Of a DNA stretch of 64,000 nucleotides, positions 1 to 64,000 are shown piece after piece. The notes beneath the pieces are model-generated. The model ran no database searches and had not been told where the DNA came from. It saw only the letters and a program-made list of their open reading frames with translations. The DNA is from Hymenobacter radiodurans. GTDB taxonomy: Bacteria; Bacteroidota; Bacteroidia; Cytophagales; Hymenobacteraceae. The stretch's first letter is position 1. Each line of letters opens with the position of its first letter. A program made the translations under genes and the position numbers. Location of the stretch: NCBI RefSeq assembly GCF_004355185.1, contig NZ_CP037922.1:1364001-1428000 (forward strand). The letters are read 5' to 3'.

Positions 1-747
1 CAGAAGGCCCAACAGTATCCAAGGCCACCGGCTCGGCGAATCGGCGACGGCTTCCACGTCGCGGGCGGTGTTGCGGACCGCGTCGCCGGTGCGGTTGGCG
101 GCCGCCGAAACGGTATTACCAAAGGTATTGGTAGCCGCGCTGGCGGCGCTGCCTACGCTGGCCGCTGCTCCACCCAGACCCAGACCGGAGAGCATGCCGC
201 CGATGTTGCCGGGCAGGCTGCCCAAAGCACCCATTATGCTGCCGCGCTGGCTGCTCAAGTAAGTTCCAAAGCCGTTGGAGTCTAAGTTGTTATCGGCCGC
301 ATGCTTGCCCAGCAAGCCCAAAATCACTGGCGTAGCCATACCCATCAGGCTGCTCGTGGTAGATGTGCGCACGCCGGCCTGCTGACTGATGCCATCTACG
401 GCGGAGGTATAATTGCTGCCAAATACGGAGCGCAGCATTTCGGCTCCCTTATTTAGTAGGCTGCCATCGGTGGCGGGTGCGGTGGTGCTGGTGCTGCTAG
501 TGCCGCCTACCAAACTGCCCAGATTACCTAGAATGCCGCTGCTGTGCGCTTGGCGGGATAGGTCGAATAATTCGGTGTTACCCCCAGGCTGTTGGGAGCG
601 AGCAAATAATCCGCCTAATACCAAGGGAATTATGCTTTTCAAGGCTGTGCCAATACTACTTTCGTTTTCGCCCAGCGCGTTGCTGGTTTGGCGTACGGTG
701 TCGCCACTGAAGTAGCTCTGAACAAGCTCTAATAAATTCTGGCTCAT
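1..747 (-). CDS. DUF937 domain protein (3' end outside window)
   Basis: Reading leftwards from the ATG at 745-747, an open frame of 249 codons runs off the window edge without a stop, so the C-terminus is missing. The start (MSQNLLELVQSYFSGDTVRQ) and the glycine-rich blocks such as VLGGLFAR and VILGLLGKH are typical of DUF937 proteins, a family of unknown role. The last visible residues (RWPWILLGLL) look like the beginning of a membrane anchor. The middle is rich in Ser, Thr, Ala and Gly. Forward-strand open frames here are shadows. Confidence 0.85.
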   Translation of the reverse strand, partial: MSQNLLELVQSYFSGDTVRQTSNALGENESSIGTALKSIIPLVLGGLFARSQQPGGNTELFDLSRQAHSSGILGNLGSLVGGTSSTSTTAPATDGSLLNKGAEMLRSVFGSNYTSAVDGISQQAGVRTSTTSSLMGMATPVILGLLGKHAADNNLDSNGFGTYLSSQRGSIMGALGSLPGNIGGMLSGLGLGGAAASVGSAASAATNTFGNTVSAAANRTGDAVRNTARDVEAVADSPSRWPWILLGLL

Positions 748-880
748 AGGGTTTTGGCATTTAGTGAAGAGATATATCAATATACGAATCCTTTCCACTT
801 AAGGGCGTTTTTATAGATATTTTAATCTTAAGTAGAACTTATTTCTGACGAGATGATGACTATAGAATTGGCGCACGGCA

Positions 881-920
881 CAAAAAAGCCCCCCAGTCAT
901 ATGGCTGGGGGGCTTTTTTG
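881..920 (-). terminator. Rho-independent terminator, G6C-type hairpin
   Basis: CAAAAAAGCCCCCCAG, an 8-base loop, then CTGGGGGGCTTTTTTG. Both arms are complete (6 C and 6 G). The hairpin lies just after the stop of the leftward membrane-protein gene and is symmetric, so it could work in both directions. Confidence 0.85.
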
Positions 921-933
921 TGCTTGAAGAAAT

Positions 934-1395
934 CTAGAATCGGAACAGCGGACGCTCAGGATTCCAGATGCCCCACGGAATCATGAGCAGCACCAATACC
1001 AGCGCCACAGCAAACCAAATAAAGGCTTTTTTGTGCTTGGAGACGGGGTTGATAGCTTTCTTGGAGAGCGAGCGGCCCACCTGTGCAATGATAACGGCGA
1101 GAATCATAGTCGCGATATGCTCCACACCCCAGAAGCGCAGTTCGGGATTTTTCATGGCGGCGCCCATGCTTTGGGTGGCTGCCTTTGCTACCGGGCTCAG
1201 CCCGAAATACAGAATCAGGCCCAGCAGCAGTTGCAGATGCATGGAGCCCACAAAGGCGGCTGCCATGCCATTGTCGGCACCGAGATAAGGACGACGATTT
1301 TGCCAACCTACGAAGGCGCGGTACAACGCAATCAGCCCAAAAATAACCACCAGCCAGCGCGACCAGGAGTGCAGCGCAAGTACGATATCATACAT
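934..1395 (-). CDS. Cytochrome-b-like four-helix membrane protein
   Basis: 153 residues from the ATG at 1393-1395 (MYDIVLALHSWSRWLVV). The frame is open further upstream, but those residues are Pro/Phe-rich and unlikely to be translated. Four hydrophobic segments are visible. Histidines sit near membrane segments (ALHSW near residue 9, GSMHLQL in the second helix, GVEHIAT in the third), which resembles small cytochrome-b-like proteins of Bacteroidota. Haem binding is an inference; no partner gene is adjacent. Confidence 0.7.
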   Translation of the reverse strand: MYDIVLALHSWSRWLVVIFGLIALYRAFVGWQNRRPYLGADNGMAAAFVGSMHLQLLLGLILYFGLSPVAKAATQSMGAAMKNPELRFWGVEHIATMILAVIIAQVGRSLSKKAINPVSKHKKAFIWFAVALVLVLLMIPWGIWNPERPLFRF

Positions 1396-1507
1396 AGGAA
1401 AAGGGAAAGGTGAGGCGGTAAAGGTCGGGAGTGGGAACGAAAATGCCACATTGGGGGGCAAAATCTTGGTTGATGGCCTTTATTAGAGGGTGGCCGAAAG
1501 GGAAAAG

Positions 1508-2770: not shown

Positions 2771-3772
2771 TTAGAACCGAACTTTATTGATGCTGAAGTC
2801 TGATACTGGCGGATTTTGCCCCCCAAATAGCGCGCTCAGGTAAGCGTAGAGCACATAGGTTTCGCTGCCGCGGCGCGTGAGGGTTGTTGGGAAGACGTTG
2901 CCGGTGGCAAAATTGCCCCCCACAGTAGCCGAAGCGAAGTTATCTGTCGAGGTAAGGCGAAATACGGTGCTTTGGCTGTTTGATACGACTAGCAGCGTAC
3001 GGTTATCTTGGAGCAGAATGCCGTCGGCACCTTCCAGATTCTGAGCGCTGGCCACCGGGCTAAACGCGGCGGGGTTGCTCAACGGCACTTTATACACTAC
3101 GCCCTGTGTCGATTGGGCCACCAGCAAATAGCCATCGGGATGATAAGCGATACCGTTCAGGCCGAATGCGCCGGCTGGGGCGGCTAGCTGGCTGCTCTCG
3201 AGAAATACAGAAGCATTGCCCCGTAAATCGACCTTGTAAATAATGGGCGAGAAGCTATCCGTGATATACGCATTGCCCTGCGCGTCGACGGTAATATCAT
3301 TAGCAAAGTGCCCTTGGCCAGGCCGCAAAGCCCCCAAGTTAACAAAGGTGTCAAGCTTGCTATTGTCGGAGTTGAAAATAGCGAGGGCCGCCAACTGGCC
3401 CGCAGTGGCGGCGGTAGAGCGGCTCGAATTAGCACCCGGATCGGAAACGGCCGCCAGAAGCCGCTTGCGGTCCGCATCGAGGTGGAGGCCGATGGTGGAA
3501 ACCAGGCGGGCATCATCGGCAAACACGCGGTAATTGCCATTGTCCTGCACCTGCCCAATTGCGCCGCGCGTCAGGGAGCTGACGAAGAAATTATTGGTTT
3601 TGTCGTTGTACTGCACGCCTTCGGGATACAGCGCGGGCTGGGTGAAGGTGATGGTGTTTGGCCCAACAGGGGAGGGAAGCGCTCCGTTGTCTTCGGAGCA
3701 GGAGGAAGCGACGCTCAGCAAGCCACCAAGCAGCAAAGCAGAAAAAGCGCGCGGGGAGAAAGAGTAGGACAT
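2771..3772 (-). CDS. SMP-30/NHL-like beta-propeller lipoprotein
   Basis: 333 residues from the ATG at 3770-3772; an ATG nine codons upstream (3799) is also possible. The N-terminus is a signal peptide ending in a likely lipobox (SVASSC). The rest resembles SMP-30/gluconolactonase propellers: repeated patterns such as PEGVQYNDKTNNFFVSS, NDITVDAQGNAYITDS and NGIAYHPDGYLLVAQ, one per blade. Such proteins bind a divalent metal and some hydrolyse lactones, but the catalytic residues cannot be assigned by eye. It is probably anchored in the outer envelope. The gene contains two copies of the GCCCCCC word. Confidence 0.8.
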   Translation of the reverse strand: MSYSFSPRAFSALLLGGLLSVASSCSEDNGALPSPVGPNTITFTQPALYPEGVQYNDKTNNFFVSSLTRGAIGQVQDNGNYRVFADDARLVSTIGLHLDADRKRLLAAVSDPGANSSRSTAATAGQLAALAIFNSDNSKLDTFVNLGALRPGQGHFANDITVDAQGNAYITDSFSPIIYKVDLRGNASVFLESSQLAAPAGAFGLNGIAYHPDGYLLVAQSTQGVVYKVPLSNPAAFSPVASAQNLEGADGILLQDNRTLLVVSNSQSTVFRLTSTDNFASATVGGNFATGNVFPTTLTRRGSETYVLYAYLSALFGGQNPPVSDFSINKVRF

Positions 3773-4152: not shown

Positions 4153-4193
4153 GTAAAAGTATTGCGCGCTACGAAAAAAGCCCCCCGATGCTG

Positions 4194-5066
4194 CTATTTG
4201 TGCTTGTGGCCGGGCTCGTAGATCAGGCGCAGGAAGGAGCTGAGCCGCTGCTCTTCCCGCCGTACCGGAATGCCCCCCACAATGCCCACAAGTAGATTAT
4301 CGGCAATACCTACGCGCATCTGGGGCCGGATGGTCATGTCAAAGTCGCCGTGCTGCCACCCTTTGTTGAACTCGACGCCCAGAAAGTTGCGGGTGCCTGG
4401 TATCATGTAGTGAAAGCTGGAGTTGAGCTGATACGACCACTCGACGTGGCCTGTGGCAAAGTGCTGATCGGCAATGGGGCCGGTATAAATCAGGGAGTGA
4501 TAATTGTCGCCCCAGCGCTTGGCCGCCACGAAGAAGGGACTGTACACGTTGCCCGTAATAAACTTCTGATTAAGCTGCCGAAACTCATTCATGGTCAGCT
4601 CATTAATGTAGCCAACGGCCATCGAGGTCTTCAGCTTCTCCGAGACGAAGAAGGAATATTGAAAAGCCGTTTTTAGCCCATTTAGTTGGCTGCGGGGCTG
4701 CCGCACATCTTCCCCGCGGGCACCAGAGTAGAAAGTCAGGGGCACTTCTACTTCCAGCCCCAGGCGGTTGAGGGGCGCCCACTCGTATTCGACCAACACC
4801 TCGTAGCTGTCGTAGCGCAGATTATCGGTCAGGCCCGCGCCCACATTCCACTCTCTTTCGCCTTTTCGGGCGCCCAAGTCACGGATAAGGTCAACGAACA
4901 GAGGCTCGGCGTGCAGCACTTTATTCGGCTCCTGCGCATCCTCAATTTCCTGCACATAAAGGCTGTCGAGCGTGCTGTTGGTTGGTTCCGTGGGTTCAAG
5001 TTGTTGGGCCCAAGCCGAAGAAACTGTCAGGCAGAAAACCGACAAAAGAAGAGAAAGAAATTTCAT
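4194..5066 (-). CDS. Secreted outer-membrane-type protein, function unknown
   Basis: 290 residues. The signal peptide (MKFLSLLLSVFCLTVSSAWA, cleaved before QQ) is clear. The mature protein begins with an acidic linker, then a conserved-looking block HAEPLFVDLIRDLGARKGERE, then alternating short strands (LGLEVEVPLTFYSG, LGVEFNKGWQHGDFDMTIRP, LLVGIVGGIPV) that suggest a small outer-membrane beta-barrel. No enzyme motif is seen. A lone AAAAAAGCCCCCC word lies just downstream without a partner arm. Confidence 0.75.
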   Translation of the reverse strand: MKFLSLLLSVFCLTVSSAWAQQLEPTEPTNSTLDSLYVQEIEDAQEPNKVLHAEPLFVDLIRDLGARKGEREWNVGAGLTDNLRYDSYEVLVEYEWAPLNRLGLEVEVPLTFYSGARGEDVRQPRSQLNGLKTAFQYSFFVSEKLKTSMAVGYINELTMNEFRQLNQKFITGNVYSPFFVAAKRWGDNYHSLIYTGPIADQHFATGHVEWSYQLNSSFHYMIPGTRNFLGVEFNKGWQHGDFDMTIRPQMRVGIADNLLVGIVGGIPVRREEQRLSSFLRLIYEPGHKHK

Positions 5067-5275: not shown

Positions 5276-6556
5276 GTGAAAAATAACCGCCGTGCCGTGG
5301 CGCTCCTGTTCACGGCCAATGCTATTTCTGGCTTTGCTCAAGGCATCACGATGCTGGCCGTGCCGTGGTTTTTTGCCCGCCAAGGCGCTTCCAGTACCTT
5401 TAATTTATTGTACGGACTAGTCACATTTGCCTCCTTATTCTGGGGCATGTACGCGGGCGCCTTAGTCGACCGTTTCGACCGGAAGCGGGTGTTTTTGGCG
5501 TCGAATATGGTGGAAGGGGCAGTGCTGCTCGGCGTGGCCAGCTATGGCTTTGCGACGGGCGGTGTGCCGCTGGGGGGCATTTTGCTGGCTTTCACTACCA
5601 CCGTGTTTGGCTACGGCATTCACTACCCCAACCTCTACGCCTTTGCCCAGGAAATCAGTCTGCCTAAAGACTACCCGCGTATCACTTCCGCCATCGAAAT
5701 TGTGGGGCAGGCTACGTCGGTGGTGAGTGGAGCGCTGGCGGCGCTGTTGCTGGAGGGCTTGCCCGCGGGCCAAACGTATACTTTGTTTGGGGCGCAACTA
5801 GCCTTGCCTTTTTCGCTGGAAGCCTGGCCTTTGCATCAGATATTCCTGCTCGACGGCATTACTTACGCGGTGGCCGTTGGGCTCATCGCTTTCATTCGTC
5901 ACCACCCAGTCATACATACCCAAGTAGAGTTGGGCTCACTCTGGAAAAGGCTGGGTACGGGCATCACATATCTGCGGGAGCACCGCGCCGTGTGGGTATT
6001 TGGCCTATTTTCCTTCTCGGTGTTTGTGGGGCTGCTGGTTAGCCTGAATGCACTTATGCCCCTATATGTGCACAATCATTTGAAAGCCGGAGCGGGCGTA
6101 TTTGGCGCAGCCGAAGTCGCTTACGCCGTGGGGGCCCTCAGTGCTGGCCTTTTTGTGCGGCGGGTATTTCTGCGCCACCCCACGTTGCGCTCCGTCATTG
6201 TACTAATGATGATTGCCGGAGTAAGCTTTGGCGTAGCTGCGGCCACGCGGTCAGTGGGATTATTTCTGGCCTTTTCACTGGTTCTGGGCTTCACCAATGC
6301 AGGCACGCGTATCCTACGAGTCAGCTACTTGTTTGTGCACGTGCCGAATGAGGTAATTGGGCGAGTAAACAGCATTTTCAACGTCGTAAATGTGCTTTTG
6401 CGCACTGGCTTCATTCTGCTGTTCTCGTTGCGGTTTTTCACCCTGGGCTCCAATATAGCGTGGGGCTATGCCTTGCTGGGGGGCTTTATTGTGGCCTCGG
6501 CAGCGGTTCTGGTGGTGCGCTACCGCGAGCTAAGCGCCACGCCAGTTCCGGCCTAG
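5276..6556 (+). CDS. MFS transporter
   Basis: 426 residues, with about 12 hydrophobic segments in two halves. The loop after the second helix reads GALVDRFDRKRVF, the MFS motif A. The start is GTG at 5276, since no ATG lies close upstream in frame and the first helix begins soon after. The overall pattern (long first loop PWFFARQGASS, broad middle loop) resembles drug or siderophore exporters of the EntS/MFS_3 type; the substrate is not identifiable. It is divergent from the outer-membrane gene on its left. Confidence 0.88.
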   Translation: MKNNRRAVALLFTANAISGFAQGITMLAVPWFFARQGASSTFNLLYGLVTFASLFWGMYAGALVDRFDRKRVFLASNMVEGAVLLGVASYGFATGGVPLGGILLAFTTTVFGYGIHYPNLYAFAQEISLPKDYPRITSAIEIVGQATSVVSGALAALLLEGLPAGQTYTLFGAQLALPFSLEAWPLHQIFLLDGITYAVAVGLIAFIRHHPVIHTQVELGSLWKRLGTGITYLREHRAVWVFGLFSFSVFVGLLVSLNALMPLYVHNHLKAGAGVFGAAEVAYAVGALSAGLFVRRVFLRHPTLRSVIVLMMIAGVSFGVAAATRSVGLFLAFSLVLGFTNAGTRILRVSYLFVHVPNEVIGRVNSIFNVVNVLLRTGFILLFSLRFFTLGSNIAWGYALLGGFIVASAAVLVVRYRELSATPVPA

Positions 6557-6962
6557 CCTCCGGCGCAGGTGGGGGGCTTTTCTGGGCTCCGAATCTGGGA
6601 GTTACACGTAGCGTTCCACGAAGCATAATCATTTCTATATCGTATACCCAGCTTCCAATGCGCGCTTTTTTTACCCTCACTAACGCTACACCAGTGCTGT
6701 ATTTTCTGCCATTGCTAAAGTCGAGCTTCAAATAGCATAATTAACGGATGGCATGAGGCTTTCATGAGGTAGATATATGGAGGAAAAGGATGAATTTTCT
6801 CCGTATAAAGTGCAAAATGCATGAGAATAGTTTAATGAAATTGCGCAAAAAATACTTATTTAAGTGATATAAATACGGGTTATTGGATTTTGTGAAATAT
6901 AACTGCTACCTTAATTACGTATGGAGATAGTCAACAATTTTCACCACTTAATACAAATAATT
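6557..6962. other. Intergenic region, AT-rich right half
   Basis: About 400 bases between the MFS gene and the ferritin-like pair. One copy of GGGGGGCTTT lies at 6571-6580, soon after the MFS stop, without a hairpin partner. From about 6720 on, the DNA is AT-rich and probably holds the promoter of the ferritin-like operon, but no clean TAnnTTTG box is seen. Confidence 0.5.
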
Positions 6963-8835: not shown

Positions 8836-11490
8836 ATGCGCTCCTATCTACTTTTTGCTTTAGTCTTATGCAAGGCTGTCCTGTTCACAACACTATATGG
8901 GTATGCTGGTATTATCCGGGGCCGGGTGACGGATGCGCAGGGAACAGCGCTGGCCTACGCCAACGTGGCGGTGCGCACCACTGCCACCAGTACGGCCGCT
9001 AATGAGCAGGGCGATTATCAGCTAAAATTGCCCCCCGGTCGCTACGAATTGGTGTTTCAGTACGTGGGCTACAAGCCGCGCATCGAAGCCGTGCAGGTAG
9101 CCGGCGGCGACACGCTGACGGTGCTCAACGTGAGTCTGCAAACCGAGACCTATAAAGTAGGTGAGGTGCTGGTACGCTCCACCGACCGTGACCCCGCTTA
9201 CGCCTTGGTGCAGCACGCTATTCAGTGGCGACGCTACCACCGCTCGGAAATTGCAGCCTTCTCAGCGCGCACTTATATCAAAGCCATCATTCGCCTGACC
9301 GATGTGCCCGGCAAGATTCTGGGTCTTATCAAAACGGATCCTAGCCTTAAGCCGGGAGTCATTTATTTGTCAGAATCGGTGTCGGAACTATCGTTTCGCC
9401 AGCCGGGCCAGATTCGGGAACGCATGATTTCCTCGCGGGTAAGCGGCAGCAGTAAGGGCTTTAGCTTTAATCGAGCGTCGGGGCGGAGCTTTAATTTCTA
9501 CGATAACCTGATTCAGTCGGGCTTCTCAGAGCGCGGTTTCGTGTCGCCTATTGCCCAGAACGCCATGCTGTTCTACCGTTACGAGCTAGTGGGCACCAGC
9601 ACCCAGGATGGGCGGCAAATCCATAAAATACGCGTCACGCCCCGCCGCCGCAACGACCCGGCTTTCACCGGCTTTATCTATCTGGTTGATGGCACCTGGC
9701 GTATCCACAGCCTGGAATTGAGCTTGAGTAAGAATTCGGGAATCGAGTACGTGGAGAGCATTCGCATTGCCCAGCAGTTTGCGCCCGCGCCGGGGCCATC
9801 GGATGTGTGGGTGATGCAGTCGCAAAAGGTAAACTTGATAGGGGAGGGGCTGGGGTTTAAAGGCAACGGCTCGTTCAACGCTATCCTGTCTAACTACCGC
9901 GTCACGCCCACCTATCCCAACCGCCCCGACGAGAAAGTAGTAGCCGCCGCGCCTGTCGCGCCTGAAGCAACGCCCGCCCCTGTGGGCCGCGAAACGGTAG
10001 CCGATGTGAAGAAGCAGCGCCCCGATCTGGGGGGCATTTCTCGCCAGGTGCGCAAGCAAACCAAGCTGGCCGATAAGCAGCTGGAGCAGCAAGCCCGCGA
10101 GGCCGGGATTGAGCCACTGGCCAAAGGCGAAGTAATGCGCGTGGAAGAAGGGGCCAACGAGCGCGACTCGGCCTATTGGGCCCAAATCAGGCCCATTCCG
10201 CTCACCGACGAAGAGGCCCGCGACTACCAGGTAAAGGACAGCACAGAGGTAATTAAAAGGTCGAGGCCCTACCAGGATTCGCTGGACCGCAAGCGCAATG
10301 AGATAGAGCCCGCCGAAATTCTGCTCACTGGCTACGAGTATTCTAACTCGTTCCGGCGGCGCACCGTCCGGCTAGAGCCCATCTTCAACACCTTGCAATA
10401 CAGCACGGTAGAAGGCACTATTGTAAATGCTCAAGCCACCTTTACCCAGCGCTACGAAGACCGCCGCAATTACTCTTTCACGCCAACGTTGCGCTATGGC
10501 TTTGCGGCCAAACTGTTCAGTCCGAGCCTATCGGGTGGCTACACGTACAAGCCGCTTTCATTTAGCCGCATAGGCTTTATCGTGGGCCGTACCATTGAGA
10601 ATTTCGACCCAGCCAGCCAGCTGACGCCATTCATTAACACCCAGTACACGCTGCTGCGCAACACCAATTACGCCAAATACTACCAGCGCGACGGGGGCGA
10701 AATTAACTTCCGCACCGAGCTGGTTAATGGCCTGACGCTGCGCACTGCCCTTGGCTACGCCGACCGCCGCGAGCTGCCAAACGCCACCATCAAAACCATT
10801 GTGGATGTGCCAGGTCGCGCCTTCACGCCCAATGATCCGATAAATGAAGAATTGCCCAGCGGCTCCAGCTTCGGTCGCAACCAGTCACTCACGGCTTATG
10901 CCGAGCTGCTCTGGCAACCGGGGCAGCAGTACATTATCCGACCGACGGGTAAGTTTAACCTAGGCTCCAAGTACCCAACTTTCCGGTTGGGGCTGCGGCA
11001 GGGATTTGGCGGCGTGCTTGGCTCCGATGTGCGCTACTCGCGCCTGGAAGGCGGCTTGCGTAAGACGCTGGAGCTGGGTCTTTTCGGAGAAAGCAACTTC
11101 GACTTGACCGTGGGGGGCTTTTTGGGCCGCCCTCAACTCTCGTTTATGGACTACCGGCACTTCGCCGGCAACCAAACCATTTTCGCCGCCGACTTCAGCC
11201 AGTTTCAGCTGCTCGATTACTACAACTTCAGCACGCGCCGCAGCTATATTGAGGGCCACTACAATCACCATTTCAACGGCTTCTTCCTGAATAAAATACC
11301 GCTGCTTCGCCGCCTGAAATGGCAGGAAGTGGCCACGCTAAATTACCTGCGTACGCCCAACGTCGGGCATTATGTAGAGCTAGGCGTAGGCGTAGAGCAC
11401 ATTTTCAAGGTATTTCGGTTTGATGTGTATACAGCCCTGCGTTCCGGCCAGAAGCTGGATACGGGTATTCGCATCGGGGCTGGCTTTTAG
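8836..11490 (+). CDS. DUF5686 / carboxypeptidase-regulatory-like outer-membrane protein
   Basis: 884 residues with a signal peptide ending near YGYAG. Residues about 27-110 form a carboxypeptidase-D regulatory-like domain (GRVTDAQGTALAYANVAVR, NEQGDYQLKLPPGRYELVFQYVGY), as found at the N-terminus of TonB-dependent receptors. The remainder matches DUF5686: a periplasmic part (RTYIKAIIRL) and a C-terminal region of alternating strands ending RIGAGF, which suggests an outer-membrane barrel with an aromatic end. Residues 370-490 are Pro/Glu/Gln-rich. The family is widespread in Bacteroidota and has no firm function. Not co-directional with an obvious partner. Confidence 0.88.
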   Translation: MRSYLLFALVLCKAVLFTTLYGYAGIIRGRVTDAQGTALAYANVAVRTTATSTAANEQGDYQLKLPPGRYELVFQYVGYKPRIEAVQVAGGDTLTVLNVSLQTETYKVGEVLVRSTDRDPAYALVQHAIQWRRYHRSEIAAFSARTYIKAIIRLTDVPGKILGLIKTDPSLKPGVIYLSESVSELSFRQPGQIRERMISSRVSGSSKGFSFNRASGRSFNFYDNLIQSGFSERGFVSPIAQNAMLFYRYELVGTSTQDGRQIHKIRVTPRRRNDPAFTGFIYLVDGTWRIHSLELSLSKNSGIEYVESIRIAQQFAPAPGPSDVWVMQSQKVNLIGEGLGFKGNGSFNAILSNYRVTPTYPNRPDEKVVAAAPVAPEATPAPVGRETVADVKKQRPDLGGISRQVRKQTKLADKQLEQQAREAGIEPLAKGEVMRVEEGANERDSAYWAQIRPIPLTDEEARDYQVKDSTEVIKRSRPYQDSLDRKRNEIEPAEILLTGYEYSNSFRRRTVRLEPIFNTLQYSTVEGTIVNAQATFTQRYEDRRNYSFTPTLRYGFAAKLFSPSLSGGYTYKPLSFSRIGFIVGRTIENFDPASQLTPFINTQYTLLRNTNYAKYYQRDGGEINFRTELVNGLTLRTALGYADRRELPNATIKTIVDVPGRAFTPNDPINEELPSGSSFGRNQSLTAYAELLWQPGQQYIIRPTGKFNLGSKYPTFRLGLRQGFGGVLGSDVRYSRLEGGLRKTLELGLFGESNFDLTVGGFLGRPQLSFMDYRHFAGNQTIFAADFSQFQLLDYYNFSTRRSYIEGHYNHHFNGFFLNKIPLLRRLKWQEVATLNYLRTPNVGHYVELGVGVEHIFKVFRFDVYTALRSGQKLDTGIRIGAGF

Positions 11491-11618: not shown

Positions 11619-11720
11619 GGCGTTCTGAAATCAAGAGCCACAACTGATTCCCACTTTCCCACCCGCGCCCCGCTAGCTACCCAAGCCAACTCATCTTATC
11701 TTAACAAGAAAAAACAGAAG

Positions 11721-14120: not shown

Positions 14121-16028
14121 ATGATTTCCATTAACGACTTAGACTTCCATTTTGGCTCGCGTACGCTCTACGACAAGGCCAGTCTCCACATAAAGCCCAA
14201 AGACAAAATCGGCCTGATTGGGCTGAATGGAACGGGCAAATCCACGCTGCTGCGCATTCTGGTGGGCGAGTACAAGCCCGACGGTGGTAGCATTCAGATG
14301 GGTAAAGAAGTGTCGTTGGGCTTCCTGAACCAGGATTTGCTCAGCTACGACACCCACGAGAGCATCCTCAACGTGGCCATGCAGGCCTTTGAGGAAGCCC
14401 TGAACGTGCAGAAGAAAATTGACCAGATTCTGGTCGAGTTTGAGAATAACTATCACGACGACCTCGTGCAGAAGCTCGCCGATTTGCAGGAGCGCTTCGA
14501 GGCCCTGGGCGGCTACACCATGCAGGCCGAGGCCGAAGAGATTCTGGAAGGTCTGGGCTTCACGACCGAGGAGCTACAGCGTCCGCTCAAAACCTTCAGC
14601 GGCGGCTGGCGGATGCGGGTAATGCTGGCCAAAATTCTGCTTCAGAAACCCTCGCTGCTCCTGCTCGACGAGCCTACCAACCACTTGGACCTTCCCAGTA
14701 TCAAGTGGATTGAGAACTACCTGGCCGACTACGAAGGCGCCGTTATCATCGTATCCCACGACCGTGAGTTCCTAGACCGTACCACCAACACGACGGTGGA
14801 AGTGACGGGGGGCAAATTGGTGCAATACGCCGGTAACTACACCTATTACTTGGAGGAAAAGGAAGAGCGCAACGCTATCCAAAAAGGTGCTTTCGAGAAC
14901 CAGCAGGCCCAAATCAGGCAGGCAGAGAAGTTTATTGAGCGCTTTAAAGCCAAAGCCTCCAAGGCCAAGCAGGCCCAAAGCCGCGTGAAGATGCTCGACA
15001 AGCTGGAGCGCATCGACGACGTAGCCAACGACGCGGCCCGCGTGAACATCAAATTCAATTTCACGGTGCAGCCCGGCCGCCACATCCTGCGCATGGAGCA
15101 TGTGGGCAAGAAATACGGCGACAAACTCATCTTCCGCGACACCAACCTGCACATCGAGCGCGGCGACAAAATTGCGCTCGTCGGGGCCAACGGTAAGGGC
15201 AAATCCACGCTCATGCGCCTAGTAGCAGGGCAGGAGGCGCCCTCCAACGGCAACCACCAGCTCGGCCACAACGTGATTATGTCGTTCTACGCCCAGCACC
15301 AGCTGGAAAGCCTGAACGTGAACAACGAGATTTTGCAGGAGATGAACGAGGCCGGCTCTAAGCGCAACGAGATGGAGTTGCGCTCCGTGCTGGGTTCCTT
15401 CCTCTTCACCGGCGAGCAGGTATACAAGAAGATTAAGGTGCTCTCGGGGGGCGAAAAAAGCCGCGTGGCCCTAGCCAAAACGCTCATCTCGGAAGCCAAC
15501 TTCCTCCTGCTTGACGAGCCGACCAACCACCTGGACATGCAATCAGTGAACATCCTGATTCAGGCCCTGGAGCAGTACGAAGGCACCTACATCGTCATCA
15601 GCCACGACCGTTTCTTCGTGGAGAACGTGGCCAACAAGATCTGGTTTATCGAGGATTACCAGCTCAAGGAATACCCCGGCACCTACTCTGAGTTTGAGCA
15701 GTGGATGGAAGACCGCGACAAAGCTGCCAAGAAAGCGGCTCTAATTGCCCCCCAGCCCTCTGCTAAAGCCGCTTCCAACCAAAAGCCAGCGTTTAAAGCT
15801 GAGCCGGCCAAACAAACCAGCAACGGCAGCACCAAAAGCAGCCGAGAGCTACAGGAAGTAGAAAGCCGCATCACTACCCTGGAAAAGGAACTGGCCCAAT
15901 ATGAAGCTCAACTCGCCGACCCCGGCATCTACAGCAATGCCGCCCAGTTGAAAGACGCTACGCTTAAATTTGAGCAAGTGCAGAAAGAGCTGACTCTCCA
16001 AACGAAGCGCTGGGAAGAGCTCGTGTGA
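14121..16028 (+). CDS. ABC-F family ATPase
   Basis: 635 residues with two ABC domains and no membrane segments. First domain: Walker A GLNGTGKST (about 34-42), signature FSGGWRMR (about 158) and Walker B LLLLDEPTNHLD (about 183). A charged linker (residues about 245-300, KASKAKQAQSR) corresponds to the P-site tRNA interaction motif. Second domain: GANGKGKST (about 353), LSGGEKSR and LLLDEPTNHLD. The C-terminal 60 residues form a coiled coil (ELQEVESRITTLEKEL). ABC-F proteins act on ribosomes, in translation restart or antibiotic protection; which applies here is not clear. A terminator follows. Confidence 0.92.
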   Translation: MISINDLDFHFGSRTLYDKASLHIKPKDKIGLIGLNGTGKSTLLRILVGEYKPDGGSIQMGKEVSLGFLNQDLLSYDTHESILNVAMQAFEEALNVQKKIDQILVEFENNYHDDLVQKLADLQERFEALGGYTMQAEAEEILEGLGFTTEELQRPLKTFSGGWRMRVMLAKILLQKPSLLLLDEPTNHLDLPSIKWIENYLADYEGAVIIVSHDREFLDRTTNTTVEVTGGKLVQYAGNYTYYLEEKEERNAIQKGAFENQQAQIRQAEKFIERFKAKASKAKQAQSRVKMLDKLERIDDVANDAARVNIKFNFTVQPGRHILRMEHVGKKYGDKLIFRDTNLHIERGDKIALVGANGKGKSTLMRLVAGQEAPSNGNHQLGHNVIMSFYAQHQLESLNVNNEILQEMNEAGSKRNEMELRSVLGSFLFTGEQVYKKIKVLSGGEKSRVALAKTLISEANFLLLDEPTNHLDMQSVNILIQALEQYEGTYIVISHDRFFVENVANKIWFIEDYQLKEYPGTYSEFEQWMEDRDKAAKKAALIAPQPSAKAASNQKPAFKAEPAKQTSNGSTKSSRELQEVESRITTLEKELAQYEAQLADPGIYSNAAQLKDATLKFEQVQKELTLQTKRWEELV

Positions 16029-16057: not shown

Positions 16058-16095
16058 AAAAAAGCCCCCTGAAATATTTCTGGGGGCTTTTTCTT
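16058..16095 (+). terminator. Rho-independent terminator of the ABC-F gene
   Basis: CAAAAAAGCCCCC, TGAAATATTTC loop region, then TGGGGGCTTTTTC. Both arms here carry five C/G. Confidence 0.85.
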
Positions 16096-19850: not shown

Positions 19851-19926
19851 AAAAAGCCCCCAGCCGCACACTAACGCTTTTTCTAAGCGACAGAAGATGC
19901 AAGTGCGCGGCTGGGGGGCTTTTTTG
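19851..19926 (+). terminator. Terminator with a long loop after the DUF5103 gene
   Basis: AAAAAGCCCCCAGCCGC and GCGGCTGGGGGGCTTTTTT pair across a loop of about 40 bases. The left arm has five C and the right arm six G. Confidence 0.75.
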
Positions 19927-24302: not shown

Positions 24303-24356
24303 GGGGGGCTTTTTTAAGGTTGTCGTGTGCGTGCGCTGGCTTGCCCTTCAACGATA

Positions 24357-27301: not shown

Positions 27302-27328
27302 AAAAGCCCCCCAGCGGGAGAAATACGG

Positions 27329-38838: not shown

Positions 38839-38885
38839 ACAAAAAAGCCCCCAGCAGTTCTATGAGCGTCTGGGGGCTTTTTTGT
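38839..38885 (+). terminator. G6C-type terminator
   Basis: CACAAAAAAGCCCCCAG and CTGGGGGCTTTTTTGTG; both arms with five C/G. Serves the convergent DUF1573 and DUF423 genes. Confidence 0.85.
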
Positions 38886-44532: not shown

Positions 44533-44645
44533 AGGAAAGGGGCTGGGGGGCTTTTTTAGAAGTGAATGGCGATTCTGGAGTATGAACGCAGCTACCTAAC
44601 GGTTGAGTGCAACCGTCCGTGCTAAAAAATAATGCCAGCCTCGAT

Positions 44646-51625: not shown

Positions 51626-52921
51626 ATGATTGCCTCTTGGCTCGTTACTGTGCTGCTTTTCGGAAGAACCCTGCGGGGCTGGGGGGCTTTTTTGGGGTTG
51701 CTGCTAAGCTTAACAGCTACTGGCCAGTCAACCCAATCGGCAACCGCAGCATTCAGTTTTAAGAGTGCCAAAACGCGCAGCCTTGCGGTGCCCGTCGAAT
51801 TGCAGCGCAACCTGATTATTATCAGCGCTTCCCTTAACGGACAGGGGCCGTTCAACTTTCTGCTGGATACCGGCGTGAGTACGTCCATTCTCACCGACCC
51901 AACGCTGCGCACACAGTTGGGACTACGGCTGGGGCAGCGCTTCCGCGTAGCGGGTGCCGGCGAGGATCAGGCCCTAGAAGCTTTCCAGACCGATAGTGTG
52001 CACGTGACCTTAGCCGATGGCAAGGTGGAAGCGCCAGCCCTCACGTTCCTGATTCTTTCCAGTGATGTGCTCAACCTGTCGGGCTACGTGGGTATGCCCA
52101 TCCATGGCATTCTGGGCTATGATGTGTTTCGCAGCTTTGTTGTGCGCATTCACCCGGTCGAGTCCCGGGTAGTGTTGATTAATCCCGCGTCGTTTCGGGC
52201 GCCCAAGGGAAGGCGCTGGACTTCTATGGGCATCGATATGGAAGGCAGTAAGGCCTACTTACGTACCGAGGCCGTGGTGCACGACTCGCTGCAGCTGCCG
52301 CTCAAGCTGGTGCTCGACACTGGGGCAGGGCACGCGTTGTCGCTCGAAACCACCTCCGACCCGCGCCTGACTCTGCCGCCGCGGCGGATACGGTCGCAGC
52401 TGGGCCGGGGACTCAATGGGCTCATTAATGGGTACCTGGGCCGGGTAACATCGTTGCAGCTAGGTAAATACAAGGTCAAATCCTTAGTTACCTCTTTCCC
52501 CGATGCAGCCGATGTAAGCCATCGGGCCGAGGTATTTCGTAATGGCAACGTGGGTCTGGAGCTGCTCAAGCGTTTCGATATTATCATTGATTACACCCGC
52601 AATCGGCTCTGGTTGCGTCCCAATAGTCTTTATCGCGACCCCTTCGAGCACGATATGAGTGGTATCGACTTGCTGGCTACCGGCTCCGACTATCACCAGT
52701 ATATTATCCTCAAAGTAGAAAAAGGTTCGCCCGCTGATGAGGCCGGCCTGAAGCCCACCGACGAGATTATAGCTATTAATCTGATGCCCGTAGCGGGCCT
52801 TTCGCTCACCCAAATCAGCCGAATTCTGCACTCCGATGATGGCCGCCAACTCCTGTTCATCGTGCGCCGCGCCGATGGCGAACTGATCACAACCAGTGTG
52901 CGTCTAAGGCGTCAGATTTAG
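51626..52921 (+). CDS. Aspartyl protease with C-terminal PDZ domain
   Basis: 431 residues from the ATG at 51626. A signal helix (WGAFLGLLLSLTA) is encoded by a copy of CTGGGGGGCTTTTTTGG. Two retropepsin-type motifs, LLDTGVSTSIL (about 87) and LVLDTGAGHALSL (about 225), and a PDZ domain at the end (VEKGSPADEAGLKPTDEIIAIN). This layout is known in envelope-located aspartyl proteases of Bacteroidota. The target is unknown. Confidence 0.9.
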   Translation: MIASWLVTVLLFGRTLRGWGAFLGLLLSLTATGQSTQSATAAFSFKSAKTRSLAVPVELQRNLIIISASLNGQGPFNFLLDTGVSTSILTDPTLRTQLGLRLGQRFRVAGAGEDQALEAFQTDSVHVTLADGKVEAPALTFLILSSDVLNLSGYVGMPIHGILGYDVFRSFVVRIHPVESRVVLINPASFRAPKGRRWTSMGIDMEGSKAYLRTEAVVHDSLQLPLKLVLDTGAGHALSLETTSDPRLTLPPRRIRSQLGRGLNGLINGYLGRVTSLQLGKYKVKSLVTSFPDAADVSHRAEVFRNGNVGLELLKRFDIIIDYTRNRLWLRPNSLYRDPFEHDMSGIDLLATGSDYHQYIILKVEKGSPADEAGLKPTDEIIAINLMPVAGLSLTQISRILHSDDGRQLLFIVRRADGELITTSVRLRRQI

Positions 52922-53011: not shown

Positions 53012-54172
53012 ATGCCAACGGCCCCTTCGCCCGCGCTGCCGCTACCGTCGCCTGCCATCTTGGCCAATCAGCACATCTACTCCGATTATTTCGACGAGGA
53101 ATACGTGCGGGCCGTCGACAAGCACCTGCTGCAGCTACTCGATCGGGTGTGGTTCCGCTCCAAGCTGGTGGGTTTCGAGCAGTATCCGCAACGGAATAAC
53201 CCGGAGCGCCCATTGCTTTTCGCCAGCAATCATTCGGGCATGGCGTTTCCCTGGGATGCCATGGTAGCCCTCTCGCACTTGCTGCGCGTGCTGCCTGGTA
53301 TGTACGACCTGCCGCGGCCCCTTTCAGCGCCCATGCTCTCGCAATCGGTGCTGATGAACCCGTATCTGATTCCGCATTTCTGGAAGAAATGCGGCTGTGT
53401 TGATGCTACCACGCTCAATTTTGAGACGATGATGTTCTGCAACGACCACAACTTGATGCTGTACCCCGAGGGCGTGCCGGGCATTGGCAAAGGGTTTAAC
53501 CGCAAGTATCAACTGCAGCGCCTCGCTACCAGCATCATCCGGCTAGGCATCGAGCACCGCACCGATATTGTGCCGTACTATACCGTAAATGGGGAATACC
53601 TGAACCCCTACGCTTATAGCTGGGACTGGCTGAACAAATGGACCAAAAAGATTGGGATTCCCTTCATTCCCGTGGGGCCCATTATCATCATGGTGCTGCT
53701 CCAGCCCTGGTTTTTTTACCTCGCGTATCCGGCCAAGCTCACCTTTGTGTTGGGCACGCGCATCAAGCCCTACGAACTGACCGAAAAGCCCCCCAGCGAG
53801 CTTACCCGCGAAGATTATCTGGCCTTGTCGGAGCAAGTGCGCCAACAAATGCAGACGGAGCTGGATGCGGCTGTGCGCAACCACGGCAAGCATCCTTACT
53901 GCTGGAGCGAGCTTTGGCAACGTATGAAAGCCAACTGGAGCTACTTTCCTTTCTTTCTGCCCTTTGCCTGGCCCGAACTCTTCCGGGAGTTTGAGCGCCA
54001 ATACGCAGAGAAAGGTCCCGAGGGGGTAGATCTGAAACTAACTAAGCGCGGCTCTTGGCTGCGTATGATTTGGCGCAACCCCTTCACCCTCACTTTCTTC
54101 ATTCCCGTATTAGGATGGATACCTATTGCTATTCGCGGCTACAAGGGGCATCGAATAGGAAAAAAAGCATAA
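53012..54172 (+). CDS. Lysophospholipid acyltransferase (PlsC-like)
   Basis: 386 residues. Motif I SNHSGMAFPWDAMV (about residue 72; a longer His-Asp spacing than HX4D) and motif III LMLYPEGVPGIGKG (about 150) are present. Two hydrophobic parts in the second half (LQPWFFYLAYPAKLTFVLG and PFTLTFFIPVLGWIPIAI) attach it to the membrane. It transfers an acyl chain to a lipid; the acceptor is unknown. A TACCTTGC box lies 10 bases before the start. Confidence 0.84.
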   Translation: MPTAPSPALPLPSPAILANQHIYSDYFDEEYVRAVDKHLLQLLDRVWFRSKLVGFEQYPQRNNPERPLLFASNHSGMAFPWDAMVALSHLLRVLPGMYDLPRPLSAPMLSQSVLMNPYLIPHFWKKCGCVDATTLNFETMMFCNDHNLMLYPEGVPGIGKGFNRKYQLQRLATSIIRLGIEHRTDIVPYYTVNGEYLNPYAYSWDWLNKWTKKIGIPFIPVGPIIIMVLLQPWFFYLAYPAKLTFVLGTRIKPYELTEKPPSELTREDYLALSEQVRQQMQTELDAAVRNHGKHPYCWSELWQRMKANWSYFPFFLPFAWPELFREFERQYAEKGPEGVDLKLTKRGSWLRMIWRNPFTLTFFIPVLGWIPIAIRGYKGHRIGKKA

Positions 54173-54293
54173 CCAGTCATTGGGAAGGATTCCCCAATTC
54201 TTGCCACCAACAATATTCTTGCGTGTAAAAGCCCCCCGCTACTGCTCGCAGTCCGTACCCGCCCTGCCTCCCTTCCCACCCAATAGTATACAA

Positions 54294-56115: not shown

Positions 56116-56242
56116 TAGACACACCGTACGCATCGCACTTCAAGCGGTGCGGTTTTGATTTTTAGCTAGCTGGGGGGCATTTTGCTTACCTTTCTTGTCG
56201 AGGCTGGCCAGGCTGCCTCTTCACGGGCTTCTTTTTTCGCGC

Positions 56243-60394: not shown

Positions 60395-61528
60395 TTACAA
60401 ATTCCCGCGTAGCGCCTGCTCACGCTCTATGGACTCAAACAACGCCTTAAAATTGCCTTTACCAAAGCTTTTGGCGCCTTTACGCTGGATGATTTCATAA
60501 AATACCGTGGGCCGGTCTTCTACGGGCTTGGTGAAGATCTGCAGTAAGTAGCCTTCCTCGTCGCGGTCCACCAAGATGTTCAGATCCTTCAGCGTCTGGA
60601 GGTCTTCCTCAATACTACCGATGCGCTCCAACAGGTCGTCATAATACACGGCTGGCACAGTTAGGAACTCTACGCCGCGGCGGCGCAACTCCGTGACGGT
60701 GTGACGAATATCTTTGGTGGCAATGGCGATGTGCTGCACACCGGGCGAATGATAAAAGTCGAGGTACTCTTCAATCTGCGACTTCTTCTTGCCCTCGGCT
60801 GGCTCGTTGATAGGGAATTTGACGTACCCATTGCCGTTGCTGACCACCTTGCTCATTAAGGCCGAGTACTCAGTGGAAATATCTTCGTCGTCGAAGGTCA
60901 GCAGGAGCTTAAAGCCCATCACGTCTTCGTAGAATTTCACCCACTGGTTCATCTCGCCCCACCCTACATTGCCTACGCAGTGGTCAACGTGCAACAGACC
61001 CACGGGAGTAGGTTGTGGAATCAGGCTGGTTTTGGGCACGAAGCCCGGCATAAAAGCCCCCCGATAGTTACGGCGCTCCACAAACGTGTGGATGGTTTCG
61101 CCATAAGTATAGATACCCGAGAGCGTTACTTCGCCGTGCTCGTCGCTGATGGTATAGGGCTCGAAAGCGGCCTTTGCGCCGCGCTTGGTGGTTTCTTCGA
61201 ATGATTTGCGGGCGTCATCTACCCACAACGCCATCACTTTTACGCCGTCGCCGTGCTTGCGTACATGCTCCGAAATGTCGGAGTCGGGGAGGAGGGAGGT
61301 GGTGAGTACTAAGCGGATTTTTCCTTGCTGCAATACGTAACTGGCGCGGTCGCGGAGGCCGGTTTCGGGGCCGGCGTAGGCTACCAACTCGTAGCCAAAG
61401 GCCGCTTGGTAATAATAAGCCGATTGCTTGGCGTTACCAACATAAAACTCAACGTAATCAGTACCGTTCAGGGGGAGGAAGTCGTGGGCGGGGTGGGCCT
61501 GCACGGCCGGCGAGGTCATCGTCTGCAT
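60395..61528 (-). CDS. hppD: 4-Hydroxyphenylpyruvate dioxygenase
   Basis: 377 residues. Two glyoxalase-fold halves: LNGTDYVEFYVGNAKQSAYY and LHVDHCVGNVGWGEMNQWVKFYEDVMGF. Likely iron ligands are His in LHVDHCVGN, His in VQHIAIATKDI and Glu in VFYEIIQRKG. It converts 4-hydroxyphenylpyruvate to homogentisate in tyrosine breakdown. No neighbouring hmg or fah gene in the window. Confidence 0.93.
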   Translation of the reverse strand: MQTMTSPAVQAHPAHDFLPLNGTDYVEFYVGNAKQSAYYYQAAFGYELVAYAGPETGLRDRASYVLQQGKIRLVLTTSLLPDSDISEHVRKHGDGVKVMALWVDDARKSFEETTKRGAKAAFEPYTISDEHGEVTLSGIYTYGETIHTFVERRNYRGAFMPGFVPKTSLIPQPTPVGLLHVDHCVGNVGWGEMNQWVKFYEDVMGFKLLLTFDDEDISTEYSALMSKVVSNGNGYVKFPINEPAEGKKKSQIEEYLDFYHSPGVQHIAIATKDIRHTVTELRRRGVEFLTVPAVYYDDLLERIGSIEEDLQTLKDLNILVDRDEEGYLLQIFTKPVEDRPTVFYEIIQRKGAKSFGKGNFKALFESIEREQALRGNL

Positions 61529-62203: not shown

Positions 62204-62240
62204 CGTTGTGCTGGGGGGTAAATACTTCCCGCTTTCTACC

Positions 62241-62597
62241 ATGATTTATCGCATCGCCGAACTAGCTGATTGGCAACATGCTCAGCAAACCGGCTTTTTT
62301 GCCAGTGCCGATTTATCGGCCGAAGGCTTCATTCACGCTTCCGAACTGTATCAGGTAGAAGCCACTGCGAACCGCTACTACGCTGGTCGCTCCGATATTA
62401 TCCTGTTGGAACTCGACGAATCGGAGTTGTGGGTGGCGGCGGTGCCTGTGAAGCGGGAATACGCCGAAGCGCGCAATGACTATTTTCCTCACATTTTTGC
62501 GCCCATTCCGCTCGCCGCTATTGCCCGTGCTTTGCCATTTCAAGTTGGTTCCGATGGACAGCACGAGTTGCCGCCGGAGTTAGAAGATGAAGCTTAA
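62241..62597 (+). CDS. DUF952 family protein
   Basis: 118 residues from the ATG at 62241 (MIYRIAELADWQHAQQTGFF). SADLSAEGFIHASELYQVEAT, then ADDLILLE-like SDIILLELDESELWV and FPHIFAPIPLAAI match DUF952, a small fold related to ADP-ribosyltransferase-like proteins without a known function. The residues FIHAS are typical. Own terminator. Confidence 0.88.
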   Translation: MIYRIAELADWQHAQQTGFFASADLSAEGFIHASELYQVEATANRYYAGRSDIILLELDESELWVAAVPVKREYAEARNDYFPHIFAPIPLAAIARALPFQVGSDGQHELPPELEDEA

Positions 62598-62605
62598 TAC
62601 GTGAA

Positions 62606-62644
62606 GAAAAAAGCCCCCAGAAGTACTTCTGGGGGGCTTTTTTC
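62606..62644. terminator. G6C-type terminator, asymmetric
   Basis: AAAAAAGCCCCCAGAAG and TACTTCTGGGGGGCTTTTTT. One arm has five C and the other six G. It serves the convergent DUF952 and ABC-F genes. Confidence 0.88.
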
Positions 62645-62659
62645 TGCTGTTTGTTGATA

Positions 62660-64000
62660 TTACATAAAGTCGGCTAGCTCTAGCCACCGCTCGCCTTTGC
62701 TATCTAAGGCAGCGTCGGTGCGCTTTAGTTCGGCGGCCCAATCAGCCAAGTCTTTATGGGAACCAGTGCCGGCATTGAGCTTCTCGATAAGCTGCTGCTT
62801 CACTTCTTCGAGCTTCTCGATTTCCTTTTCTAAGGTCTCGTACTCCTTTTTCTCCGCGAAAGTGGCCTTGCGTTTTGGTGCCTCAGCAGGGGCAGTTGCT
62901 ACTGCTTTCACTGGGGCAGCTGAAGGCGCTACGCCTGCAGCCGCTTTGGCCGTTTTGGCTTGCTCTTTCGCGTATTCTTCGGCGTTGTTTTCCTTCTGCC
63001 ACTCGCGGTAGTCGGTGTAGTTGCCGGGGAAGTGTCGAATTTGCCCCCCGGGCTCCAACACAAACACGTGCTCCACCAGCGCATCCATGAAGTAGCGGTC
63101 GTGGGAAACAATGAGCAGGCAACCACCAAAATTCAGCAGAAAATCCTCCAGAATATTGAGCGTGATGATGTCCAGATCGTTTGTGGGCTCGTCAAGAATC
63201 AGGAAGTTTGGGTTCTTGATAAGCACGCGCAGCAGTTGCAAACGCCGCTTTTCGCCTCCTGAGAGCTTACTAACCAGCGTGTACTGCTGGGCTGGCGGGA
63301 ACTGGAAGTGCTGCAAAAACTGCGACGCCGTGACCACCTCGCCGTTGGCCATTTCCACCACTTCGGCCACCTCCTTCACAATGTCGATGACGCGCTGGGT
63401 AGGATCAAATTCCAGCTCCGTTTGGGTGTAGTAACCGAAAACGGTGGTCTGGCCCTTGTCGATGGTGCCGCTATCCGGCTCCTGGCGGCCGGTGAGCATG
63501 TTGAGCAAGGTAGATTTGCCGGCGCCATTCGGGCCAATCAGGCCAATACGGTCCTTTTTCTTGAATACATAGCTGAAGTCATCGAGCACTACTTTATCGC
63601 CAAATTGCTTGTGCAGGTGCTCCACCTCAATGATTTTGCCCCCCTGACGCGTGGTTTTCACCGATAGCTCCAGCTGCGGACCGCTAATCTTGGTCTTGGC
63701 CTTTTCTTGGGTTTCGTAGAAGGCATCGATGCGGGCCTTTTGCTTCGTGCCGCGGGCTTGCGGTTGCCTACGCATCCAATCCAGTTCCTTACGTAGCAGG
63801 TTGCGGGCTTTTTCTACCTCCGCTACCTCAATCTGCTCGCGCTCAGCCTTTTTCTCGACGAAGTAGGAATAATTGCCCTGGTAGCGGTGCACGCGACCTT
63901 GGTCGAGTTCCACGATTTCATTGGCTACTTTATCGAGGAAGTAGCGGTCGTGGGTCACCATTAATAAGGTGAGATTAGGCGAAGCCAGCCGGTTTTCGAG
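62660..64000 (-). CDS. Uup-like ABC-F ATPase (5' end outside window)
   Basis: 446 codons are visible; the N-terminal domain's first part is beyond the right edge. VTHDRYFLDKVANEIVELD closes domain 1; domain 2 has Walker A GPNGAGKST, signature LSGGEKRRLQ and LILDEPTNDLD. The C-terminal 110 residues form a Lys/Glu-rich coiled coil (EYETLEKEIEKLEEVKQQL) as in Uup, which binds DNA or ribosomes. The visible first ATG (63961) lies inside the domain and is not the start. Confidence 0.9.
   Translation of the reverse strand, partial: LENRLASPNLTLLMVTHDRYFLDKVANEIVELDQGRVHRYQGNYSYFVEKKAEREQIEVAEVEKARNLLRKELDWMRRQPQARGTKQKARIDAFYETQEKAKTKISGPQLELSVKTTRQGGKIIEVEHLHKQFGDKVVLDDFSYVFKKKDRIGLIGPNGAGKSTLLNMLTGRQEPDSGTIDKGQTTVFGYYTQTELEFDPTQRVIDIVKEVAEVVEMANGEVVTASQFLQHFQFPPAQQYTLVSKLSGGEKRRLQLLRVLIKNPNFLILDEPTNDLDIITLNILEDFLLNFGGCLLIVSHDRYFMDALVEHVFVLEPGGQIRHFPGNYTDYREWQKENNAEEYAKEQAKTAKAAAGVAPSAAPVKAVATAPAEAPKRKATFAEKKEYETLEKEIEKLEEVKQQLIEKLNAGTGSHKDLADWAAELKRTDAALDSKGERWLELADFM

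Follow-up and report, generated by a model that had tools for sequence, protein, structure and literature searches.

The genome of Hymenobacter radiodurans carries some thousands of copies of a short DNA word, GGGGGGC followed by three A/T bases (GGGGGGCWWW, where W is A or T), and this word is real, specific to one clade of the genus and maintained within it. We examined the word in a 64-kb window (contig NZ_CP037922.1, positions 1,364,001 to 1,428,000), where a preliminary description of the sequence had drawn attention to it, in the remainder of the genome and in related genomes. On balance, we lean towards reading it as a genome-wide self signal resembling the uptake sequences of other bacteria, which would have been born once on a Hymenobacter branch and would have spread by biased uptake and recombination.

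An exact word repeated throughout the genome

On the two strands of the window, GGGGGGC occurs 60 times (16.2 expected from dinucleotide shuffles), and three A/T bases follow it in 55 of these copies, 30 on the plus strand and 25 on the minus strand (2.1 expected). The recount agrees with the preliminary description, which had put these numbers at about 60, 55, 30 and 25, and had named just four trinucleotides after the core; AAA, TTT, AAT or ATT indeed account for all 55. The base preceding the G-run is T in 42 copies, C in 12, A in one and never G, so the run is exactly six bases long.

Wider counts were made on two samples of the genome, one of 464 kb comprising the window and 20 stretches of 20 kb, and a larger one of 824 kb. 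Genes are our own picks of open reading frames (ORFs) by codon score (332 in the 464 kb), not the published annotation. The logo of 332 sites in the 464-kb sample reads (C)T-GGGGGG-C-WWW-T-T, and a TpA step falls in the triplet after the core at 16 of these. Of the 515 WWWW tetramers that follow the core in the 824 kb, 474 have no TpA step, compared with 1270 of 2567 after other GGC. This composition is an A-tract pattern rather than a fixed base string, and from it we infer a narrow minor groove. The conserved unit spans 13 bp (−1 to +11), with T or C, six G, C, and about five A/T bases in which TpA steps are rare.

Across the whole genome (4.92 Mb, two contigs), we counted 3168 copies of GGGGGGCWWW (1564 + 1604), compared with 60 (32 + 28) of the reversed word; the word is non-palindromic and so differs from its own reverse complement. 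The preliminary description had suggested a comparison with codon-preserving shuffles, and here the excess is clear, with 226 copies in the 332 genes and 16.5 ± 4.7 in 100 shuffles, which rules out codon or peptide preference as the cause. Markov models of order 2 to 5 predict 8 to 38 copies (38 at the fifth order) for all 464 kb, where 299 are observed. Perfect copies outnumber one-mismatch forms by 467:184, a ratio of 2.5 when the form with T in place of the first G is set aside; 115 of the 144 copies of that form are of the TTTT type, and including it lowers the ratio to 1.4.

Restriction to one clade and conservation within it

When the 12-mer YGGGGGGCWWWW was counted in 120 Hymenobacter genomes, four proved to be carriers: the genome of the window (G000, 2856 copies), G010 (2392), G102 (2928) and G119 (3304). 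None of the other 116 has more than 30 copies, and none of 394 further genomes across the phylum, three of them from the genus Hymenobacter, has more than 46. The carriers form one clade with a support of 100/100 in a tree built from one gene of the 30 genomes, among the 120, most similar to the query, and a single origin therefore suffices. At those sites of the window that could be aligned, the word is present at 39 of 50 in G119, at 11 of 18 in G102, and at 31 of 48 in G010, where 15 more read as five G and lower the count for this genome; it is present at none of 24 and none of 20 in the wordless outgroups G031 and G139, respectively. In 80 kb of each outgroup, the overrepresented words are mostly of CTG/CAG and GGCC type, the commonest 10-mer listed occurs 19 times, and none resembles the word of the carriers. 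Small excesses of GGGGGGCWWW over its reversed control were seen in some genomes of the same order (at most 121 copies, in G046, versus 62; also G037, 51 versus 6, and G055, 41 versus 3); these are far below the carriers and are perhaps terminators. The guanine–cytosine (GC) content of the compared stretch is about 54% in G000 and G119, versus 61% in G031. The open-access literature, as distinct from subscription papers and preprints, yielded no report of the word or of any Bacteroidetes uptake sequence.

Between G000 and G119, mismatch across 255 aligned sites is 4.4% inside the word and 15.3% in the flanks, the quiet footprint running from −1 to +11, and in the reverse direction, starting from the G119 words, the values are 5.7% and 16.9%. 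The 10-mer is identical in 190 of the 255 words, compared with 454 of 1459 other S7W3 10-mers. Synonymous change affects 5.1% of 684 word codons and 27.3% of 102,550 others, roughly five-fold less, while amino-acid change stands at 5.3% in word codons and 6.3% elsewhere. Together with the codon shuffles, which do not yield the word, this bears out the earlier view that it is a DNA signal and not a codon or peptide preference. Loss from sister species had been put forward as an outcome that would speak against the word; it is indeed missing across the wider genus, but within the clade it is conserved.

The real copy number in G000 is probably higher than counted, because 49 of 301 aligned G119 words read as five G (G5) there. 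The G5 readings in G000 and G010 have the appearance of base-calling errors (homopolymer under-calling). At the G010 loci, the shortening affects 5 of 18 G6 and 3 of 9 C6 runs, and none of 13 A6 or 11 T6 runs, which resembles long-read assemblies. An AddB-like gene within G000:C2:2328001-2338000 has two frame breaks at word copies that are G5 here and G6 in G119, probably through homopolymer under-calling, otherwise through slippage at the word.

Position relative to genes and acquired DNA

The 299 copies in 464 kb comprise 118 in sense and 108 in antisense orientation within genes, 68 between genes, and five straddling gene ends, and some form terminator hairpins, in keeping with the earlier remark that copies occur in terminators and, in both orientations, inside genes. 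That remark had extended to two reading frames; in fact all six classes of frame and orientation are occupied (sense 34/11/73, antisense 54/4/50). Copies lie at 0.86/kb between genes and at 0.60/kb within them, the intergenic surplus being of the TTT type (44 of the 68 intergenic copies). As intergenic TTT copies lie mostly downstream of a co-directional gene (27 of 42 counted), the word has been co-opted by terminators. Four chosen sites of the window fold as hairpins better than shuffles on average, with z from −2.8 to −8.1.

Stretches with the look of acquired DNA hold few copies. The density of the word is 0.71/kb in DNA aligned with G119 and 0.42/kb in the unaligned remainder, a 190-kb plasmid-like contig has 18 copies, and a 28-kb locus of 43% GC (G000:C2, about 1482315-1510257), where 5 of 10 scanned ORFs have family matches of polysaccharide type (surface polysaccharide genes), has a single word place. 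At a roughly corresponding place, as judged by coordinates, G119 has a word-poor stretch.

Origin of the copies

Alignment with the outgroup G031 was obtained for 50 of the 299 sites. Across the 13 bp, 35 of these are gap-free and 15 are gapped, the latter with net length differences of −6 to +20 (over 42 surrounding columns) and no shared length of one word. The 35 gap-free 13-mers have a mean of 4.6 changes, compared with 3.2 in neighbouring 13-mers. Because most alignments are gap-free with many changes inside the 13 bp, the word appears mostly to have replaced existing bases, by substitution and not by insertion. The substitutions that formed the core and the A-tract include C>G (53), G>A (33), C>A (13), C>T (10) and G>T (10), among others; recombinational import of a variant would leave the same pattern as point substitution.

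Compared with the outgroup, amino-acid change is 38.6% in word codons (n = 140) and 20.1% elsewhere (n = 22,400), and synonymous change is 35.0% and 34.1%, respectively. Since amino-acid change is raised and synonymous change is alike, copies formed at changeable amino acids, or cost the proteins something, and are now held at the DNA level.

A possible self signal for DNA uptake

The scheme that we favour would begin on the stem of the clade, where a protein of the DNA-uptake path would have acquired a preference for double-stranded DNA with Y-GGGGGG-C (Y, pyrimidine) and about five TpA-free A/T bases. The G-run would serve base readout, and the A-tract would present a stiff helix with a narrow minor groove. 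DNA of kin with a chance near match would have been imported and recombined more often, and point mutations towards the word would thereby have spread at thousands of places, as a molecular drive, wherever proteins and terminators tolerate them; decayed copies would be repaired from kin DNA. The role of uptake as the driver is what we infer from these patterns. If so, and we incline narrowly to this view, Bacteroidota may here have their first self-DNA uptake word, which would also be the first linked to an uptake route in which no type IV pilus ATPase can be recognised.

Of the candidate machinery, ComEC was found in all eight genomes searched, and an HHH protein (ComEA-like; HHH_3, several HHH repeats) in all ten searched. 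The uptake-sequence system of Neisseria uses type IV pili. That of Haemophilus influenzae likewise uses them (PMC7811141). Riemerella, a member of Bacteroidota, transforms with ComEC, DprA, ComF and RecA and with four proteins that belong to none of the known transformation families, one of which has an HHH domain and another, at the surface, DUF5689 (PMC8459023). Because Riemerella competence uses such proteins, uptake may be possible in Bacteroidota even where no known pilus is present.

Several observations weigh against uptake as the function. Wordless relatives have ComEC and HHH proteins just as the carriers do, and a T2SSE-family ATPase (PF00437; pilus or secretion) exceeds the cut-off in none of eight genomes (G139 has one match below it). 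DUF5689 is found in none of the four carriers and over cut-off in two of six other genomes, and no convincing clade-specific gene stands beside comEC or the HHH gene; some ORFs without a match near these genes look spurious, and a few others are perhaps beyond the reach of the two outgroup stretches. Full inverted pairs are few, with opposite-strand words at most 20 bp apart amounting to four pairs in 464 kb (three arranged as terminators, one facing the other way), and the evenness of spacing is mixed, as described below. With regard to the origin by substitution, gaps affect 15 of the 50 outgroup sites, compared with 45 of 297 complete flank 13-mers, and choosing sites where the derived word is present itself inflates the change counts against the outgroup. 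Lastly, a strongly selected binding site would fit most of the same evolutionary evidence.

Alternative explanations

Such a binding site is the most serious alternative, although an unlikely one: the word would be bound by a chromosome protein present in abundance, such as a nucleoid-associated or condensin-loading one, with about one site per 1.5 kb, a lineage-specific reader, and selection for chromosome structure. The copies are spread evenly along the chromosome, with 9–18 in each of 20 stretches of 20 kb and a mean spacing of 1.55 kb, and gaps below 500 bp make up 19.5% in G000, where 27.5% is expected at random. The corresponding values in G119 are 27.3% and 31.6%. The coefficient of variation, however, is about 1, and in G119 pairs closer than 100 bp are commoner than random (9.9% versus 7.3%), which makes the evidence for evenness mixed. 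Strong conservation, scarcity on the plasmid-like contig, and a G-run and A-tract suited to double-stranded readout would all be expected of a chromosome-protein site. Against this, no nucleoid protein is known to have caused a single exact 12–13-mer to arise de novo in thousands of copies within a shallow clade. The raised amino-acid change relative to the outgroup, in part an effect of the choice of sites, would demand strong selection at every site, and copies other than TTT are not concentrated between genes (24 + 5 in 85 kb versus 178 in 379 kb). Were the function not uptake, the lineage would have rewritten about 3000 sites for some DNA-binding factor, an outcome no less surprising.

It is improbable that the word arose from a mutation or repair bias in the manner of the highly iterated palindrome HIP1, for example through a lineage-specific modification with short-patch repair converting near matches. 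The word shares with such a product its genome-wide, lineage-specific occurrence, its presence within genes and its one-mismatch forms, and HIP words do vary from one lineage to another and are associated with methyltransferases (PMC4390886). However, the word is non-palindromic, and its formation needed many types of substitution, more than one repair bias produces on its own.

We give still less credence to a role as a recombination hotspot similar to Chi, which an AddAB-type enzyme would read in double-strand-break repair. The word is G-rich, overrepresented and denser in DNA common to G119, and an AddB-like nuclease domain was found in all ten genomes searched. That domain occurs in carriers and non-carriers alike, whereas the word occurs in four of 120 congeners, and RecC is absent from all ten. 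Chi is strand-polarised (PMC8022716), and the strand skew from origin to terminus that the preliminary description had proposed to look for is absent here: the best two-arm imbalance over the 20 stretches of 20 kb is 33 of 277 (at best 56% on the leading strand, p 0.36). Equal acceptance of AAA and TTT would also be odd for a signal read on a single strand. The FtsK-orienting polar sequences (KOPS) and architecture-imparting sequences (AIMS) were rejected, as the 20 evenly spaced stretches have no two-arm strand skew. From the list of candidates drawn up earlier, an uptake-like word fits best; the lack of polarity and the restriction to four congeners speak against Chi and KOPS.

The suggestion that the word is one half of a transcription terminator, mobile or recurrent, is almost certainly wrong for the bulk of copies, as 226 of 299 lie within genes (108 of them antisense), the AAA and AAT types have no U-run, the upstream AAAGCCCC arm is present in only 18 of 83 TTTT copies, and outgroup alignments are gap-free in 35 of 50 cases and vary in length difference in the rest, although some TTT-type copies do make strong hairpins (four folded) and this type prevails between genes. 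The gap-free alignments likewise led us to reject insertion of a mobile repeat of the repetitive extragenic palindromic (REP) or miniature inverted-repeat transposable element (MITE) type.

Word copies in the window and other features of the genome

Copies of the word in the window, together with two inverted pairs of G5 near-words, are listed in Table 1.

Table 1. Copies of the 10-bp word and related features in the 64-kb window. Any further basis for a feature is given in the last column.
Sequence	Positions	Strand	Description	Further basis
GGGGGGCTTT	885..894	-	left arm of terminator-like hairpin	folding
GGGGGGCTTT	907..916	+	right arm, hairpin with 885..894	folding, z -8.1
GGGGGGCAAA	1453..1462	+		
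GGGGGGCAAA	2815..2824	-		
GGGGGGCAAT	2912..2921	-		
GGGGGGCTTT	4177..4186	-		
GGGGGGCATT	4269..4278	-		
GGGGGGCATT	5572..5581	+		
GGGGGGCTTT	6478..6487	+		
GGGGGGCTTT	6571..6580	+		
GGGGGGCAAT	9027..9036	-		
GGGGGGCATT	10029..10038	+		
GGGGGGCTTT	11112..11121	+		
GGGGGGCAAA	12282..12291	+	wordless in two aligned outgroups	
GGGGGGCAAA	12650..12659	+	wordless in two aligned outgroups	
GGGGGGCAAA	14807..14816	+	in ABC-F gene; four substitutions, no gap versus G031	
GGGGGGCAAT	15744..15753	-		
GGGGGCTTT	16061..16090	.	inverted pair of G5 near-words	terminator-like by arrangement
GGGGGGCTTT	18260..18269	+		
GGGGGGCTTT	19913..19922	+		
GGGGGGCTTT	24303..24312	+		
GGGGGGCAAA	25565..25574	+		
GGGGGGCTTT	26181..26190	-		
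GGGGGGCTTT	27303..27312	-		
GGGGGGCTTT	28928..28937	-	hairpin with G5 copy 28957-28965 (+)	folding
GGGGGGCAAA	31965..31974	-		
GGGGGGCTTT	33459..33468	-		
GGGGGGCAAA	34261..34270	-		
GGGGGGCTTT	35475..35484	+	hairpin with G5 copy 35453-35461 (-)	folding
GGGGGCTTT	38844..38880	.	inverted pair of G5 near-words	terminator-like by arrangement
GGGGGGCATT	39045..39054	-		
GGGGGGCAAA	39501..39510	+		
GGGGGGCAAA	39874..39883	+		
GGGGGGCAAT	42104..42113	+		
GGGGGGCTTT	42207..42216	+		
GGGGGGCAAA	43347..43356	-		
GGGGGGCTTT	44545..44554	+		
GGGGGGCAAT	45668..45677	+		
GGGGGGCAAA	46286..46295	+		
GGGGGGCAAT	46498..46507	-		
GGGGGGCTTT	47029..47038	+		
GGGGGGCAAT	47542..47551	-		
GGGGGGCTTT	48972..48981	+		
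GGGGGGCAAA	49210..49219	+		
GGGGGGCAAA	49602..49611	+		
GGGGGGCAAA	50713..50722	-		
GGGGGGCAAA	51068..51077	-		
GGGGGGCTTT	51681..51690	+		
GGGGGGCTTT	53785..53794	-		
GGGGGGCTTT	54228..54237	-		
GGGGGGCATT	56172..56181	+		
GGGGGGCAAA	58558..58567	-		
GGGGGGCTTT	61053..61062	-		
GGGGGGCAAA	61626..61635	+		
GGGGGGCTTT	62631..62640	+	hairpin with G5 copy 62610-62618 (-)	folding
GGGGGGCAAA	63040..63049	-		
GGGGGGCAAA	63635..63644	-	one substitution versus G031	

A palindromic dispersed repeat (MITE- or REP-like) with GCGAAGCATCTCG arms occurs in the window at 11546-11606, where it overlaps the predicted start of the ORF at 11544-13340, and at 24005-24066. The arm was found 42 times in 824 kb of G000, 31 times in 480 kb of G119 and not at all in 480 kb of G031, and the repeat is perhaps a second one specific to the clade. 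The hexamer palindromes CTGCAG, CTCGAG, GAGCTC and CCCGGG are strongly underrepresented in the 464-kb sample, as they would be under restriction. The stretch G000:C1:1-20000 contains metal-efflux genes, and its 20 kb are 100% identical to the Hymenobacter sp. HDW8 plasmid NZ_CP049908.1.

Comparison with known repeated words

The word behaves like the DNA uptake sequence (DUS) of Neisseria and the uptake signal sequence (USS) of H. influenzae; we do not class it as a member of either, because the pilus feature, looked for through the T2SSE-family ATPase, was not found, and the likeness is one of analogy. Two proteobacterial families had, by 2020, been described as strongly preferring a short sequence in uptake (PMC7811141), and whether drive or benefit is the source of their thousands of copies is still debated (PMC1939737; PMC2397512). 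Against this background, the Hymenobacter word offers an apparently independent and phylogenetically shallow case with close wordless outgroups, in a phylum whose uptake machinery is poorly known, and if the uptake reading holds, a comparison of the four carrier species and the 116 wordless congeners could show how such a word is made.

The likeness to DUS lies in a non-palindromic exact word, in both orientations and about once per 1–1.5 kb, with some inverted terminator pairs, depletion in acquired DNA, and conservation far above that of the surroundings (PMC2397512). The neisserial DUS (10–12 bp) has about 97% identity compared with about 85% around it, and the ratio of DUS to its one-mismatch form DUS-1, defined on aligned regions, is about 2.4 (PMC2397512), where the word has 2.5 (1.4 with the T-for-first-G form). 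DUS dialects are restricted to lineages (PMC3630211), and new DUS have been argued to come by recombination rather than by point mutation (PMC2397512). The word differs from DUS in its unrelated sequence, its phylum, the absence of a T2SSE-family ATPase over the cut-off, and the small number of full inverted pairs.

The USS combines a GC core with AT tracts of predicted narrow groove, numbers 1,465–2,206 copies, and has evolved by point mutation under molecular drive (PMC7811141). A GC core joined to an A-tract, a comparable copy number and an apparent origin by point mutation are thus common to the two, whereas the word has one adjoining A-tract and not two, a core of GGGGGGC and not GCGG, and again no T2SSE-family ATPase over the cut-off. 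The remaining comparisons are more distant. Chi differs in that the word has no strand polarity, is absent from sister species and has a degenerate A-tract. HIP1, which in cyanobacteria is the palindrome GCGATCGC and is linked with orphan methyltransferases (PMC4390886), has in common with the non-palindromic word described here that each is lineage-specific and highly iterated.

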